From assembly GCA_017577485.1 (NCBI GenBank), contig PKRI01000001.1, forward strand, positions 1-64,000: a DNA stretch of 64,000 nucleotides. The letters run 5' to 3'. Source of the stretch: Bacillota bacterium (GTDB taxonomy: Bacteria; Bacillota; Sulfobacillia; Thermaerobacterales; RSA17). Shown here piece by piece: positions 1,592-64,000 of the stretch. The notes below the pieces were generated by a model, which was not told the origin of the DNA, did not search any database, and saw only the letters and a program-made list of their open reading frames with translations. The stretch's first letter is position 1; each line of letters starts with the position of its first letter. Made by a program: the position numbers and the translations under genes.

Positions 1592-3571
1592 TCACCTCCT
1601 CTCGCTCTCGATCCCCCGGAGTTTGCGTTGGAGCTCGTCATGCTCTAGAATCAAACTACCGGGAACCTCTTCTCCGGCGCTCTCGCGCTGAAGAATCAGT
1701 TGCCTCAGTTCACTGGCGCGCCGCTCGATCCTGGCGCGCTCCAACCTCTGCACGCAGTCGTCCACCAGCGCAACAGCGTCGCCCGGCGGCGGTCCGGCCA
1801 TGATGAGGCCGCCGACCCAGGACGCCGCCTCATCCGTAAGTAAGTTATCGAATACTAGCCGGCCCCATGGTTTCCTTTCGGGGCTTGTTTCGCCTGCCGT
1901 TACTTCGCCCGCCGGCGTCCCGTTCCCCCCGGCGGCTGCTCCCATGGGTGATGCACCCGCCAGCCTGGCCATAACCTCCACCGCCTCGCGGGCCCGCGGG
2001 TCGGTAAACGCGCCGGGCTCGACCCGTGCCAGCACCCGCCGCACCAGGTCGGGCTCGTGCAGCAGCGCCCGCACCAGTTCCCGCTCGGCGCGCACGTGCC
2101 CCGGGACCGCCGGGACGCCGCCCGGATGGATGGACCTTCCACCGCGGGACCTTAGCCTACCCACGGCCTCCCGCGACTTATTCCGAATTCCGTCACCACC
2201 CGGGCCGGCGACGCCGCGGCCCGCAGCGGCCCGGCCGCTGACGACAGGATCCGTCACAGCACGGCGCCGTCCCACCAGGCGCGCCAGTTCCGCCCGCAGG
2301 GCTGCCTCGTCGACGCCGAGGCGCTCTGCGAAGCGGCGCATGTAGTCGCTGCGGGCCACCGCGCTCTCCAGCGACGCCCACCAGGGAGCCACCAGGCGAA
2401 CCACCTGGGCCTTGCCCTCGGGCCGCAGCACGTCGTGAGCCTGCAGGGCCCGGTCGAACACGTAGTCCACCAGCGGCTGGGCCCGGTCCAGCAGGGCCTG
2501 GAAGGCCGCCGCGCCCCGCTCCCGGATCAGGCTGTCGGGGTCGTGGCCCTGCGGCAGGCGGACGATGAACACGCTGGAGGCTCGTCCCAGGCGCGCGAAG
2601 TGCTCCAGCCCCCGCATGGTGGCCCGGTCGCCGGCGGCATCGGCATCGTAGGCGATGTAGATCCGGCCGGCGTGCCGCACCAGCATCCGGGCCTGGTCCT
2701 CGCTCAGCGCCGTGCCCAGCGACGCCACCGCTTCCTCGAAGCCCGACTGGTGGGCGGTGACCGCGTCCATGTACCCCTCGACGATGATGGCCCGGTCCCG
2801 CTGGCGCATCCGGCCCCGGGCACGGTCCAGCGCGTACAGGACCCGGCTCTTGTGAAACAGCGGCGTCTCCGGGCTGTTCAGGTACTTGGGCTGGTCGTCG
2901 CCCAGGGTGCGGCCGCCGAAGGCGATGACGCGCCCGCGCTCATCGCGGATCGGGAACATCAGCCGGCCGCGGAAGCGGTCGTAGGTGCTCCCGTCCTCCT
3001 TGCGGATGACCAGGCCCGCCTCCACCAGCAGGTCCGGGGCGACGCCCCTGGACCGCAGCGCCGAGCCCAGGGCGTCCCATTCGGCCTCGGACCAGCCCAG
3101 CCCGAAACTGCGGACGGTTCCGGCCTCGAGGCCCCGCCGGTGCAGGTACTGCCGGGCTCCTTCCGCCGAGGGTGCCCGCAACAGCAGGTTTTCAAAGTAC
3201 CGGGCCGCCCGTTCCATCACATCGAGCAGCGCCTTGCGCTGCGCCTGCAGCCGGCGCTGTTCGGGGCTCAGCGCCCGGTCGGGGAGCGTCACGCCGGCCC
3301 GTTCCGCCAGCAGCTCCAGGGCCTGCCGGAAGTCGAGACCCCGGTGCTCCATCACGAAGGTGAACACGTCGCCGCCCTTCTGGCAGCCAAAGCAGTAGAA
3401 CATCTGCCGGTCGGGCGACACGTTGAACGAGGGCGTGTCTTCGTCGTGGAACGGGCAGAGCCCGACGTAGTTGCGGCCCGCGCGGCGGAGCGCCACGTGC
3501 TCGGAGATCACGTCGACGATGTCGATGCGGCTGCGCACTTCTTCGACGACATCGTCGCGACGGTCGTGCAC
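1592..3571 (-). CDS. dnaG: DNA primase DnaG
   Basis: Synthesises RNA primers at the replication fork with DnaB helicase. It is 659 aa with the GTG start at 3569-3571, which follows a GGGGAGGAGGA ribosome site; the reading frame stays open a further 69 codons upstream but has no homologous sequence there. The N-terminal CHC2 zinc finger is visible as CPFH (39-42) and CFGC (60-63). The catalytic core has EGYMDAV and the TOPRIM acidic residues in [12 protein letters not shown]. The C-terminal third is the variable helicase-binding region, here Gly/Ala-rich and interrupted by low-complexity linkers. The dnaG stop lies just upstream of the sigA start, as in the classic macromolecular synthesis operon. 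Confidence 0.97.
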
Positions 3572-38217: not shown

Positions 38218-40974
<2,757 letters not shown>

Positions 40975-59705: not shown

Positions 59706-62201
59706 TCAGGATCCCGCCGCCGTCACCACGTTGACCAGGCGGTCAGGGATCACCACCACCCGGGCGGCCTGGCGGCCGTCCAGCAGCGCCCGGACCCGCT
59801 CGTTCTCCAGGGCCAGGCGCCGCAGTTCCTCCTCGCCGGTGCCGGCGGGCACGGTAATGCGGTCGCGCACCTTGCCGTTGACCTGCAGCACCACCGTGAC
59901 CACCTCGTCGCGGGCGATCTCGGGATCGTAGGAGGGCCACCGCTGCAGGTGCACGCTCTCCGTACGCCCCATCTGCTCCCACAGCTCTTCGGCCAGGTGG
60001 GGCGCGAAGGGCGCCAGCATCCGCACCAGCGCGTCGGCCGCCTCATCCCACACGTCCCGGTCCTGCCGCGCGGCCGGCAGCTGGTCGGCGTAGTCCTGCA
60101 GGTCGTTGACGAAGCTCATCAGGGCGCTGACCGCCGTGTTGAACTGCCAGCGCCGGTCGATGTCGTCGGTGACCTTGCGGATGGTCTGGTGCAGCCGCCG
60201 CCGGATGCGCTGGGCCGCCTCCCGGTCGGCACCGGATTCGGCGGTGCCCATGCCGTCCCGCCCGGCCCGGTAGCGCTGCATCAGCCGCCAGATTTTCTGC
60301 AGGAAGCGGTGCACGCCGGCGATGCCGCCGTCGGACCATTCGAAGTCGTTTTCGGGCGGCGCCGCGAACAGGATGTAGACGCGGCCGGTGTCGGCCCCGT
60401 AGTTGCTGACCACTTCCTCGATGCTGACCACGTTGCCCTTGGACTTGGACATCTTGGCCCCGCCCATGACCACCATGCCGTTGGTGAACAGCCGCTGGAA
60501 GGGCTCCGGCGACGGGACCAGGCCCTCGTCATAGAGCACCTTGGTGATGAAGCGCGAGTAGAGCAGGTGCAGGATGGCGTGCTCGATGCCGCCGATGTAC
60601 TGGTCCACCGGCAGCCAGTACCGCACCGCGTCCACGTCGAAGGGCCGGTGCTCGTCGCGGGCCGACGTGTAGCGGTAGTAGTACCAGGACGAGTCCACGA
60701 AGGTGTCCATGGTGTCGGTCTCGCGCCGGGCCGGCCCGCCGCACTGGGGACAGGTGGTGCGGACGAAGCCCTCATGCCTGGCCAGCGGCGAGCCGCCCTC
60801 GCCGGTGAACTCCACGTCGTCGGGCAGCAGCACCGGCAGGTCCTTTTCCGGCACCGGCACGGTGCCGCAGCGGTCGCAGTACACGATGGGGATGGGCGCC
60901 CCCCAGTACCGCTGCCGCGAGATCAGCCAGTCCCGCAGGCGGTAGGTGACGCGCCGCCGGCCCAGGCCCTGCTGCTCCAGCCAGTCGGCCATGCGCTCCC
61001 GGGCCGTGGCGCTGTCCAGCCCGTTGAACTGGCCGGAATTGACCATGGTCCCCTCGCCGGCGTAAGCCTCGGTCATGGTGCCCGGGTCGAGGGTCTCGCC
61101 CGGCGGCTGGACCACCACCCGGATGGGCAGCCCGTACTGCCGGGCGAACTCGAAGTCGCGCTGGTCGTGGGCCGGCACCGCCTGGATGGCGCCGGTGCCG
61201 TAGTCCATCAGCACGTAATCGGCGGTCCAGATGGGGATCTTCTCGCCGGTGGCCGGGTTGACGGCGTAGCGGCCGGTGAAGACGCCCTGCTTGGTGTTGA
61301 GGGTGGTGCGCATCCGCTGGGTCATGTGGCTCATGCGCTCCACGAAGGCGCGCACCTCGGCCTCCTGGGGCGTCCCCCGGGCCAGCTCCAGCGTCAGCGG
61401 GTGCTCCGGCGCCAGCACCATAAAGGTGGCGCCGAAGATGGTGTCGTGGCGGGTGGTGAACACCTTGATGGCGCCGTCGCGGCCCGCCAGGGGGAAGTCG
61501 ATCTCGCACCCGTGGCTGCGGCCGATCCAGTTGGCCTGCATGGTCTTGACCCGCTCCGGCCAGCCGTCCAGGAGCTTCAGGTCGTCCAGCAGGCGGTCGG
61601 CGTAGGCGGTGATGCGGAAGCACCACTGCTCCAGGTCCCGCATCTGGACCTCGGACTCACAGCGCCAGCAGCGGCCCTCTTCCACCTGCTCGTTGGCCAG
61701 CACCGTCTGGCAGCGGGGGCACCAGTTGACCGGCGCCTTCCGCCGGTAGGCCAGGCCCTTCTTGTAGAGCAGCAGGAACAGCCACTGGGTCCACTTGTAG
61801 TAGCCGGGGTGCGAGCAGGCCACTTCCCGCCGCCAGTCATAGGAGTAGCCCATCCGCCGCATCTGGGCGCGGATGGTGTCGATGTTGGCGTAGGTGGACA
61901 CGGCCGGGTGAATGCCGTGCTCGATGGCGTAGTTCTCGGCCGGCATGCCGAAGGAGTCCCAGCCCATGGGGTGCAGCACCTGGTAGCCGTTCATGCGCTT
62001 GAAACGGGCGATCAGGTCGCCGATGGAGTAGACCCGGGTGTGGCCGATGTGCAGCGCCCCCGACGGGTACGGGTACATCTCCAGGCAGTAGAACTTGGGC
62101 CGGGAGGGGTCGGGCTCCACGTCGTAGAGCCGCTGTTCCTCCCAGCGGCGCTGCCACTTCTGCTCCACGGCCGCAGCGTTGTAGCGATCCTCCATGGACA
62201 C
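59706..62201 (-). CDS. leuS: leucyl-tRNA synthetase
   Basis: Class I synthetase that charges tRNA-Leu, with an editing domain. It is 831 aa. HIGH appears as [15 protein letters not shown]; the KMSKS loop is [14 protein letters not shown]. The zinc/CP1 editing region includes [20 protein letters not shown] and the T-rich [10 protein letters not shown] and [18 protein letters not shown] at 62199-62201 is chosen because GGGGGG is about 10 nt upstream; an ATG two codons later is 16 nt from it. Expression is controlled by the T-box leader at 62267-62600. It is the first large gene after that leader. Confidence 0.96.
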
Positions 62202-62266
62202 CGAACGCGCACCCCCCAGCTCGGGCCGTCGCGGGACCCCACGGCCCCTGAAGCCCCTCAAACAGA

Positions 62267-62600
62267 GGCTCCCCCGCCTCAGGGACGGGGGAGCCCGCGG
62301 TACCACCCTAATTGATAAAGCACTGTGGAGCGGATGGGATTCGAACCCACGACCTCGTGAATGCCATTCACGCGCTCTCCCAACTGAGCTACCGCCCCAC
62401 GGAAAACGCTCTATCCACTCGGCGCCTTAACGCGGCGTACACGGGACCGGCTAGGCCGCCTGCCGGCTTCACCGGACCGCCTCCCGGGCGAGTTCGGCGG
62501 CCTCAAGGTCCCGGTTCGCACCGGCCACCGGGTCGCTGGCACCATCGACCGCCTACTGCTCCCGTTCTTCGGCTTGGCGTCGGGATGGATTTGAACAGCG
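62267..62600 (-). promoter_or_regulatory. leuS T-box riboswitch interrupted by a tRNA gene
   Basis: A Leu-specific T-box leader. Stem I shows AGTA (62554-62557) opposite GAACTC with specifier CTC (62490-62492), the AGCGACC/GGTGCGAACC distal motifs, and GAGTGG downstream. The T-box core AGGGTGGTACCGCGG is at 62295-62309. The antiterminator pairs AGGG (62306-62309) with CCCT (62281-62284). The competing terminator pairs GGCTCCCCC with GGGGGAGCC (62267-62295). The hairpin that normally separates GAGTGG from the T-box core is an 8-bp stem, GATAGAGC / GCTTTATC (62408-62415, 62314-62321), and its loop is a full tRNA-Ala gene (62326-62398). Confidence 0.9.
62326..62398 (-). tRNA. tRNA-Ala (anticodon GGC)
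   Basis: A complete 73-nt cloverleaf: acceptor GGGGCGG / CCGCTCC with the G3-U70 pair that marks alanine tRNAs, D arm GCTCAGTTGGGAGAGC, anticodon stem CGTGA / TCACG around ATGGCAT (anticodon GGC at 62363-62365), and T arm GTGGGTTCGAATCCCAT. The discriminator is A. CCA is not encoded (CAGT follows). It lies inside the leuS T-box leader in the same orientation. Confidence 0.96.
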
Positions 62601-62606
62601 CCGCTA

Positions 62607-62636
62607 ATTATACGCAAGGGGACGCGGCATCGTCAA
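62607..62636 (-). promoter_or_regulatory. sigma-A promoter of the leuS leader/tRNA-Ala
   Basis: -35 TTGACG (62631-62636) and a consensus -10 TATAAT (62607-62612) with an 18-bp spacer on the minus strand. Transcription would begin near 62600 and make leader, tRNA-Ala and leuS on one RNA. No other promoter is apparent between this and leuS. Confidence 0.85.
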
Positions 62637-62655
62637 CAGCACCGGCCGGGCGGGG

Positions 62656-63009
62656 TCACGAGGGGGCCTGCTCCAGTTCCACGCGGCGGGCATCGCCCCA
62701 CAGGCGCTCCAGCCCGTAGTAATCGCGCTGCTCAGGGTTCATCACGTGGACGACCACGTCGCCGAAGTCCAGCAGCACCCAGCGCCCGTCGGTGTAGCCC
62801 TCGACTCCCAGCGGCTTGAAGCCGCGGGCCTCCAGTTCCTCCAGCACGTGGTCCACGATGGCCTTCACCTGGATGGGGTTGGCGCCGCTGGCGATGACGA
62901 AATAATCGGTGACGACCGTCAGGTCGCCCACCTCGAGCACAACGACGTCAGCCGCCTTCTTGTCGGCGGCGGCCGTCGCCGCCAGCACCGCCTTCTGGTG
63001 TGCATCCAA
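62656..63009 (-). CDS. rsfS: ribosomal silencing factor RsfS
   Basis: Binds ribosomal protein L14 and prevents subunit joining in starved cells. It is 117 aa, the usual length. ADVVVLEVGDLTVVTDYFVI, ASGANPIQVKAIVDHVLEEL, WVLLDFGDVVVHVMNPEQRD and YYGLERLWGDA are family motifs. The TTG start (63007-63009) has a GGGAGA about 11 nt upstream. It follows the LCP-family gene by 14 bp and precedes the leuS leader by about 20 bp. Confidence 0.94.
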   Translation of the reverse strand: MDAHQKAVLAATAAADKKAADVVVLEVGDLTVVTDYFVIASGANPIQVKAIVDHVLEELEARGFKPLGVEGYTDGRWVLLDFGDVVVHVMNPEQRDYYGLERLWGDARRVELEQAPS

Positions 63010-63023
63010 CGGGTCGCGTCTCC

Positions 63024-64000
63024 CTACTGCTGATTCTGTACGTAATCGCGCCCGACGACGATGGTGATGTCTGCCGGGGCCGAGTCGTCAGGTTCCGCGT
63101 AAACCCGGGCCGTGGCCGTTTGATTCACGATGGCCCGCGCCAGCACCTTGCCCATGGTCTCGTCGCCGTGATGGATCAGCACGATGGTCTCGTCCACGGG
63201 CACCTCGTCCACCACGACCTCCACGTTGTAGCCGTGCTGGCGGAGGCTCTCGGCCACCCGGCTGCCGGCCCCGCCGGGCCCCGACGCGTCGCGCACCAGC
63301 ACCTGCACCACCGTGTCGGGCGGCGGCGTCAGTCGCCAGATCAGGGCGTCCACCAGCTGGCGGGTGCCTTCCTCGTCGTGGAGCCAGTAGTACACGCCGT
63401 TCATCCAGCCGTCGCGGCCCGGAATGGTGTTCATGACGATCTCGTCGGGGCTGAAGCCGGCGGCCATGCGGCCCGCCACCGCCACCAGGTGCACCAGTTC
63501 GGACTCGCTGAGGTTGGTGTCCACCTGGCGGACGATCTCGTCCACGATCTGACCCAGGCGCGGGATGATGCCCAAATCCAGGCCCCGCTGCACCAGCGCC
63601 CGGAGGATCTCCTGCTGCCGCGCGATGCGGGCCAGGTCGCTGTCCTGCCGGTAGCGGGCGTACTGCATGGCCTCGTTGCCGTTCAGGACCCGGCACCCGG
63701 GCTGCAGGTGAATGTAAAGGTTCTGGTAGGGATCTTCGTAATGCATGGGTTTGGGCACGCAGATGTAGACGCCGCCCATCAGGTCGACGATGTTGACGAA
63801 GGCTTCCAGGTTCACCCGCACGTAGCGGTGCACCGGCACGTTCAGCAGGTGGCTGACGGCGGCCATGGACACCGCCGGGCCGCCGAAGGCGTGCGCGTGG
63901 GTGATCTTCGTCGGGTTCTCGCGGATGTAGCGGTGAAGCTGCTCATCCAGCCGGTCCAGCGGGATCTCCACGTAGGTATCCCGGGGGATGGACAGGATGC
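63024..64000 (-). CDS. LytR-CpsA-Psr family protein (5' end missing)
   Basis: Cell-wall glycopolymer ligase family (LCP), attaching teichoic acids or other polymers to peptidoglycan outside the membrane. Only the C-terminal part, about 325 residues, is in the window; the frame continues through the right edge, so the N-terminal anchor is not visible. SIPRDTYVEIPLDRLDEQL is an LCP motif at the cut end, followed by HAHAFGGPAVSMAAVSHLLN, NGNEAMQYARYRQDSDLARI, and ARQQEILRAL. A LytR C-terminal domain has VQVLVRDASGPGGAGSRVAE and TIVLIHHGDE. It lies upstream of rsfS on the same strand. Confidence 0.94.
   Translation of the reverse strand, partial: ILSIPRDTYVEIPLDRLDEQLHRYIRENPTKITHAHAFGGPAVSMAAVSHLLNVPVHRYVRVNLEAFVNIVDLMGGVYICVPKPMHYEDPYQNLYIHLQPGCRVLNGNEAMQYARYRQDSDLARIARQQEILRALVQRGLDLGIIPRLGQIVDEIVRQVDTNLSESELVHLVAVAGRMAAGFSPDEIVMNTIPGRDGWMNGVYYWLHDEEGTRQLVDALIWRLTPPPDTVVQVLVRDASGPGGAGSRVAESLRQHGYNVEVVVDEVPVDETIVLIHHGDETMGKVLARAIVNQTATARVYAEPDDSAPADITIVVGRDYVQNQQ

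Follow-up and report, generated by a model that had tools for sequence, protein, structure and literature searches.

A tRNA-Ala(GGC) gene within the Stem III loop of leucine T-box leaders upstream of leuS

Anatomy of the leuS leader

The window, a 64,000-nucleotide stretch at the start of contig PKRI01000001.1 of a Bacillota bacterium (assembly GCA_017577485.1), carries rsfS and leuS on its minus strand, with a single leader on the same strand between them (Table 1). The initial annotation, made from the sequence alone, had placed a complete tRNA-Ala(GGC) gene inside a leucine T-box riboswitch in this leader and had looked to covariance models to find the one within the other. This is what was found. 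The T-box model RF00230 matched over all 219 of its positions (model 1–219; 94.2 bits against a gathering score of 93, E 2.3e-19), the match taking in Stem I, Stem II, Stem IIA/B, Stem III and the antiterminator; the tRNA model RF00005 matched inside it at 66.3 bits, and ARAGORN made the same call. Stem I, with the leucine specifier CTC that had been read there, forms part of the match.

The tRNA had been described as replacing a small hairpin of the leader. Instead it occupies the loop of Stem III, the base of which (GATAGAGC/GCTTTATC) is kept between the purine string GAGTG and an AA dinucleotide. It had further been credited with all canonical features; the cloverleaf, the GGC anticodon and G3:U70, the alanine identity pair, are all in place, but the 3′ CCA is not encoded. 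The antiterminator and terminator, regarded earlier as normal, are both present and the terminator hairpin has bases in common with the antiterminator, which should make the two structures mutually exclusive; the T-run in the window, however, is weak. The leader matches the RRRNG–Stem III–AA motif as defined in the accessible parts of PMC7778990 and PMC7583486, the latter of which also describes the pairing of the UGGN of the T-box sequence with the NCCA end of the ligand tRNA.

When the 312-nt leader was folded by energy minimization, Stem III, the cloverleaf and the terminator all formed together, with a modest z-score of −1.73 (6 of 100 shuffled sequences folded equally well), and a 135-nt piece lacking the terminator folded into Stem III and the cloverleaf. 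A consensus scan of positions 61500–63500 returned two promoter-like sites, one per strand, as compared with a mean of 0.1 in shuffled sequence. The minus-strand site bears out the promoter proposed earlier for the leader as a promoter-like sequence, and is placed so that it could serve the whole leader, tRNA and leuS included. Within the same interval this simple scan detected no promoter- or terminator-like site that would isolate the nested tRNA, in agreement with the initial annotation.

Table 1. Features of the leuS leader and its flanking genes in the window
Feature	Position	Strand	Basis or remark
rsfS, ribosome silencing factor	62656..63009	-	family search; upstream neighbour in many relatives
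Promoter-like site TTGACG-18-TATAAT	62636-62607	-	11/12 consensus bases; consensus match only
T-box RF00230 with nested tRNA	62578-62278	-	Rfam covariance model
Specifier loop GAA-CTC-GCC, inside GAACTCGCC	62495-62487	-	specifier codon CTC (Leu)
RRRNG purine string GAGTG, 5′ of Stem III	62416..62420	-	sequence reading
Stem III 5′ strand GATAGAGC	62415-62408	-	fold and sequence reading
tRNA-Ala(GGC), 73 nt	62398-62326	-	RF00005, 66.3 bits; ARAGORN tRNA-Ala(ggc)
Stem III 3′ strand GCTTTATC	62321-62314	-	fold and sequence reading
AA, 3′ of Stem III	62312..62313	-	sequence reading
T-box sequence GGGTGGTACCGCG, antiterminator 5′ part	62296..62308	-	Rfam match and sequence reading
Terminator hairpin GGCTCCCCCGTC/GGCGGGGGAGCC, then TCTGTTT	62295-62267	-	fold; T-run weak
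leuS, leucine--tRNA ligase, 829 aa	ATG 62195 to 59706	-	TIGR00396 leuS_bact, 1093 bits

The source assembly (2.09 Mb, 71 contigs, 97.64% complete) yielded 40 tRNA matches, and anticodons were read for 35 and for five further genes. Among the 40 tRNAs, Ala(GGC) is represented by the nested gene alone and Ala(CGC) by one gene; tRNA-Ala(UGC) was not found among these matches, possibly because of an assembly gap such as an unassembled rRNA operon. The genome encodes tRNA-Leu(GAG), the cognate of the CTC specifier. GCC is the main alanine codon, accounting for 74 of 114 alanine codons in three open reading frames of the window, where the leuS frame used took in 37 codons upstream of the ATG. The genome contains 13 T-box matches (E up to 0.001), and only the one at leuS overlaps a tRNA match. 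Elsewhere in the window, a SAM riboswitch (RF00162, 75.2 bits) lies at 40828–40973 on the minus strand.

Recurrence and conservation of the nested tRNA

A comparison with related genomes, suggested in the initial annotation, showed that the arrangement recurs. Two routes were used. A BLASTN search of 61 genomes with the leader of the window gave 30 loci that were read, of which 25 had tRNA-Ala(GGC) together with the T-box motif and five had tRNA-Ala(GGC) with no motif; leuS was present in 24 of the 25 motif-bearing loci, and in the other the contig ends. The second route was a neutral pattern, consisting of a tRNA T-arm, 12–42 nt and GGTGGNACCRCG, that was scanned over a collection of species-representative genomes and returned at least 119 stretches. 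Among 80 of these that were read, a tRNA was called at the match in 42, and all 42 were tRNA-Ala(GGC); the 38 without a call include one carrier (L104) that is cut by the locus end inside the tRNA. The BLASTN loci derive from the window's own leader, whereas the neutral pattern accepts any tRNA with a standard T-arm, so that the exclusive occurrence of tRNA-Ala(GGC) there is a result rather than a choice. A tRNA-Ala pattern allowing two mismatches proved unspecific, catching many other tRNAs; an exact pattern took its place, and of the looser one only the loci were carried forward.

Over loci L044–L307 we collected 129 distinct leaders in which a tRNA is followed by the motif, and 126 of these tRNAs are tRNA-Ala(GGC). 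The other three (Ser, Gln and Gly; L156, L166 and L184) lack T-box surroundings and were set aside as chance matches. A leader entered the set of 126 only if it had GGTGGNACCRCG without deviation and its tRNA was called by ARAGORN; loci that vary in the motif or are truncated, such as L104, are therefore missed, and the counts are lower bounds. Downstream of 113 of the 126 leaders lies leuS on the same strand; the remaining 13 loci hold just 101–1685 nt of downstream sequence. Recurrence in 126 distinct leaders excludes a chance origin of the overlap.

All 20 related loci submitted to Rfam gave a full-length T-box, Stem I included, eight of them above the gathering score, and in all 20 the tRNA lies between Stem I and the antiterminator. 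A missing Stem I match, which the initial annotation had named as refuting its observation, was seen neither in the window nor at these loci. The nested tRNA was matched by RF00005 in 12 and by RF00023 in eight; the latter (tmRNA, of the same clan) matched below its own gathering score, and ARAGORN again gives tRNA-Ala(ggc) at those loci. The tRNA holds the same place in the T-box across the 67 leaders printed.

The specifier is CTC in all ten T-box alignments printed by Rfam. Upstream of the tRNA, AACTCG[CT] is found in 97 of the 126 leaders, and five more matched only as AACTTG, AACTGG or AACTAG; among the 24 leaders without a specifier match, CTC could be seen by eye in 19, and the other five were not settled by reading. 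In 116 of the 126 leaders, RAGNG occurred no more than 45 nt ahead of the tRNA and AA was found close to the T-box motif. With the Stem III strands anchored by these flanking motifs alone, each strand in the 116 leaders paired with its own partner at 4.53 of six positions, as compared with 3.47 for shuffled partners (maximum 3.71 of 1000 shuffles), and 101 distinct strand pairs gave 4.52 against 3.39 (shuffle maximum 3.67); because the shuffles ignore relatedness, part of this excess may reflect descent. Counting consecutive pairs up to eight, Stem III has at least five in 83 of 121 scored leaders, while 29 of the 121 have fewer than four from its base. A stretch of 8 nt with at least six T residues follows the T-box in 97 of 126 leaders as compared with 25 of 115 control stretches, a feature that is weak in the window.

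The distance from the discriminator to the GGTGG motif ranges from 11 to 107 nt over the 129 leaders, with a median of 22 nt. One locus (L062) has an extra insert that extends the gap between tRNA and T-box motif to 118 nt, as against about 25–42 nt. In the tRNA itself, the 3:70 pair is G–U and all seven acceptor pairs form in 126 of 126 nested genes, among which there are 14 different acceptor 5′ strands. CCA is encoded in 96 of the 126 leaders and is not in the other 30, the window included. A pairing of U(−1)G(−2) with A73–C74, which might delay RNase P (an idea drawn from the part of PMC9433436 available to us), was rejected as a conserved feature of nesting, since at least three extra pairs were found in 4 of 126 nested as compared with 11 of 20 free-standing genes.

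In evenly drawn samples, 32 of the 151 genomes from the window's class had the pattern, as did 60 of 299 from the phylum of Desulfofundulus and 20 of 301 from that of Tengunoibacter; the two phyla were read from their named genomes as Bacillota and Chloroflexota, respectively. These tallies exclude matches without a tRNA 3′ end, namely 3 of 35 in the class sample (G010, G141, G143), 1 of 61 in the Desulfofundulus-phylum sample (G511) and 4 of 24 in the Tengunoibacter-phylum sample (G478, G245, G436, G246). They are not additive because the samples overlap: at least G002–G005, G020 and G030 recur in the Desulfofundulus-phylum sample, and G176 is the same contig match as G075. Carriers include Syntrophomonas palmitatica, S. 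wolfei subsp. methylbutyratica, two Desulfofundulus species, Desulfotruncus alcoholivorax, Dictyobacter kobayashii and Tengunoibacter tsumagoiensis, as well as bins whose submitters labelled them Coprothermobacterota, Caldisericota, Armatimonadota or Actinomycetota. Nesting is thus widespread in Bacillota and Chloroflexota and is not unique to the source genome. In phage records, matches to the tRNA-Ala region were short, covering at most 24% of the query in the best 5 of 30, and no record covers 80%.

Copy number and descent

The class tally of 32 counts one genome with a broken nested tRNA (G070), and the pattern missed another (G031) on account of a longer gap; leaving out the former and adding the latter from the BLASTN set gives 32 intact class carriers. 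By the exact pattern, the nested copy is the sole tRNA-Ala(GGC) in 31 of these, among them G002 and G003, each a single contig; G045 has a further, free-standing tRNA-Ala(GGC) besides the nested one. Among the neutral-pattern matches listed, 43 carriers had one copy in 40 cases, two copies in two and none in one, the anticodon loop of the last missing the exact pattern. The nested tRNA itself fits the pattern in 39 of the 40 single-copy carriers, and the fortieth is L104, cut inside the tRNA. Single copy and conservation are indirect support for a working tRNA-Ala(GGC) that would be transcribed, processed and aminoacylated. Since the nested copy is usually the only one in the genome, production of a tRNA other than its ligand from the leader transcript, as the initial annotation had argued, looks unavoidable. 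For annotation, it follows that a tRNA call and a T-box call may both be right on the same bases.

To examine descent, a tree was built from the LeuS proteins encoded downstream of 104 of the 126 nested leaders; it was midpoint-rooted without an outgroup, and the phylum labels are our own, based on record titles and on membership of the samples. A clade of 33 tips (support 0.994) holds 26 of the 28 Chloroflexota-labelled proteins and another (65 tips, 0.993) holds 62 of the 69 Bacillota-labelled ones. The exceptions are four Bacillota-labelled proteins in the Chloroflexota-rich clade, and a small clade of three from Bacillota, two from Chloroflexota and one from a bin labelled Proteobacteria. 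The tree favours an association of long standing, in which some transfer or mislabelling has occurred, over recent spread, and nesting is probably old; an ancient transfer is a possible alternative reading of the tree.

In 52 of the 126 nested leaders rsfS lies within 700 nt upstream, and for ten others there is too little upstream sequence to decide. The class also provided 20 distinct tRNA-Ala(GGC) genes that stand free, and ten of them sit 57–233 nt after rsfS with no T-box motif. These loci would form a natural series in which the riboswitch has gone and tRNA-Ala(GGC) has been retained; we infer that the change ran towards loss of the T-box, because nesting within a T-box is so widely distributed. 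In several of these relatives (L066, L068, L071, L072 and others of the class), the free tRNA after rsfS is preceded by a promoter-like TATAAT or TATGAT, judged by eye. At L072 the free-standing tRNA-Ala(GGC) is followed by a hairpin resembling a terminator remnant and then by leuS.

The broken nested tRNA of G070 is accompanied by an intact copy elsewhere in the genome. A 44-bp repeat of the tRNA 3′ half, 97.7% identical, is shared between the two contigs (L313, G070:C54:1-700; L316, G070:C23 minus strand, ~3376–3450), and a gene of the phage integrase family (PF00589) is located some 140 nt from the intact tRNA. One contig carries Stem I and the intact tRNA, the other the 3′ half of the T-box with leuS, so that the riboswitch is divided between them. 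In this multi-contig assembly a mis-join or a mixture of strains could give the same picture; the arrangement suggests that an integrating element targeted the nested tRNA and thereby split the riboswitch.

A leader with two predicted products

The anatomy of the leader, its conservation, the single copy of its tRNA, the pairing of Stem III and the persistence of the tRNA after loss of the T-box are established. Taken at the level of sequence, they make it likely that a single transcript senses leucine and is also the RNA from which tRNA-Ala(GGC) is made. Stem I would read tRNA-Leu(GAG) through the specifier CUC, and the charging of that tRNA would decide between antiterminator and terminator; tRNA-Ala(GGC) would be carried in the variable loop of Stem III, a place where the T-box appears to tolerate foreign RNA. 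We infer that the tRNA is excised, and that excision follows a decision taken while the leader is being transcribed. RNase P would cut on the 5′ side, and RNase Z (where CCA is not encoded, as in the window) or other nucleases on the 3′ side. In other T-boxes the terminated leader is discarded; here it would become a normal supply of tRNA-Ala, with the T-box terminator doubling as terminator of the tRNA, while read-through would give the tRNA and a leuS mRNA trimmed to begin just upstream of the antiterminator. Output of the tRNA would then be constant whatever the leucine state, as the initial annotation had proposed.

Excision by RNase P and RNase Z is the general route of tRNA maturation. 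CCA is encoded in most leaders but not in the lineage of the window, so the 3′ processing route would differ between lineages; an encoded CCA counteracts RNase Z, according to the portion of PMC4919913 available. Where the nested copy is the sole tRNA-Ala(GGC), selection cannot remove it, which would account for the deep conservation of the arrangement.

In most respects these leaders resemble other transcriptional leucine T-boxes of RF00230, having Stem I with CUC, Stem II, IIA/B, the RRRNG–Stem III–AA motif, a UGGN antiterminator, a terminator and a downstream gene for an aminoacyl-tRNA synthetase. They differ in that the Stem III loop contains a full tRNA gene, usually single-copy, for another amino acid. 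In the usual view a T-box binds a tRNA supplied from another locus; in these cases the leader doubles as a tRNA gene, which is the sole one of its kind in most of the carriers tested. Genes for tRNAs that are co-transcribed with mRNAs, and cut out by RNase P and 3′ nucleases, are well known, but they adjoin a folded regulator rather than lie within it, whereas here excision would split the regulator itself. T-box variants with insertions are described in PMC7583486, in the text of which the phrase ‘tRNA gene’ does not occur. Tandem and contiguous riboswitches (PMC12452182) are likewise composite leaders with more than one functional RNA; those in the part available are arrays of sensors, and a nested tRNA gene is not among them. 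A tRNA gene inside a T-box is likewise absent from the portions consulted of PMC7778990, PMC7583486, PMC4919913, PMC12452182, PMC3766115 and PMC2494555. The initial annotation knew of no described example, and in the literature searched, outside which lie two main comparative T-box surveys, we likewise found no precedent for a T-box with a resident tRNA gene.

If the leader does have two products, RNase P would become a potential player in riboswitch function, terminated leaders would gain a use, and an essential RNA gene could be said to persist within a regulatory RNA over very long times.

How the arrangement came about, and whether the riboswitch makes use of it, admits of several readings. 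An even chance can be given to a frozen accident followed by a ratchet, in which the tRNA landed in the Stem III loop, did no harm and was kept as the sole tRNA-Ala(GGC), leucine sensing taking no notice of it. The single copy in nearly all tested carriers and the survival of the tRNA beyond the T-box are as this reading would have it, and the Stem III loop is known to vary (PMC7583486, in its accessible part). By itself, however, it leaves unexplained why leuS alone (113 of 126) and tRNA-Ala(GGC) alone (126 of 126) are involved, unless the nesting had a single origin. It is compatible with a two-product leader, of which it is the neutral form.

A regulatory role for excision is more tentative. 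On this proposal, removal of the tRNA would be a step of the switch, parting the complex of Stem I and tRNA-Leu from the mRNA and thereby giving leuS a defined 5′ end or resetting the switch. The leader of thrS in Bacillus subtilis is reportedly cleaved, and offers a comparison for an mRNA 5′ end defined in this way. The position of the tRNA is consistent with the proposal: it lies between Stem I and the antiterminator in all 20 loci tested with Rfam and, by construction of the set, ahead of the antiterminator motif in each of the 126 leaders. With five or more consecutive Stem III pairs, as found in 83 of 121 leaders, the two halves could also remain joined by pairing for some time after the cut. 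The lineages nevertheless differ in whether CCA is encoded and in spacing, which counts against the proposal. A wider form of the proposal, to which we would give similarly limited credence, is that these leaders make up a dual-output class, each leader sensing the charging of tRNA-Leu and, whatever its decision, being consumed to make the cell's only tRNA-Ala(GGC). Excision would then be part of the switch, cutting sensor from message and setting both the 5′ end and the lifetime of leuS mRNA; the leucine and alanine branches of the translation machinery would be tied together through RNA processing, and the class would go back to about the time when Bacillota and Chloroflexota split, or earlier.

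Less probable still is a role for the tRNA in cis, either as a decoy whose ACCA end would pair with the nearby antiterminator UGGU or as a timer whose length would give tRNA-Leu longer to bind. A73 is common to alanine and leucine tRNAs, and the motif is close to the discriminator (median 22 nt in 129 leaders) with CCA encoded in 96 of 126; in the other 30, however, the window included, CCA is not encoded, so a decoy cannot be general. We also consider it very improbable that two independent units overlap here, the tRNA having its own promoter inside the leader. Some relatives without a T-box do have promoter-like sequence just before the tRNA, but in the window the sole minus-strand promoter-like site between 61500 and 63500 is upstream of Stem I, by a strict scan that can miss promoters. 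That the element is a structural pseudo-tRNA, a folding domain of the riboswitch that never becomes a tRNA, would fit its constant place in the 67 leaders printed and is largely refuted, hence scarcely credible, because it is the only tRNA-Ala(GGC) gene in most tested carriers, keeps G3:U70 in all 126 and is retained as a tRNA by free-standing relatives that have no T-box.

Two further observations concern the genes next to the leader. In Desulfofundulus and relatives, a gene for an AMP-binding enzyme (PF00501; identified by Pfam in L100 and by eye in L125, L160, L080, L183 and L304–L307) separates the T-box terminator from leuS or takes up all of the downstream sequence present, and at those loci would come under the same leucine control. 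In loci of the Ktedonobacteria type (L108, L076, L264 and L266), a gene for tRNA-Ala(CGC) precedes the nested tRNA-Ala(GGC) by ~320 nt on the same strand, so that one alanine tRNA flanks the T-box and another fills it; such a tandem pair may hint at how the nesting arose.
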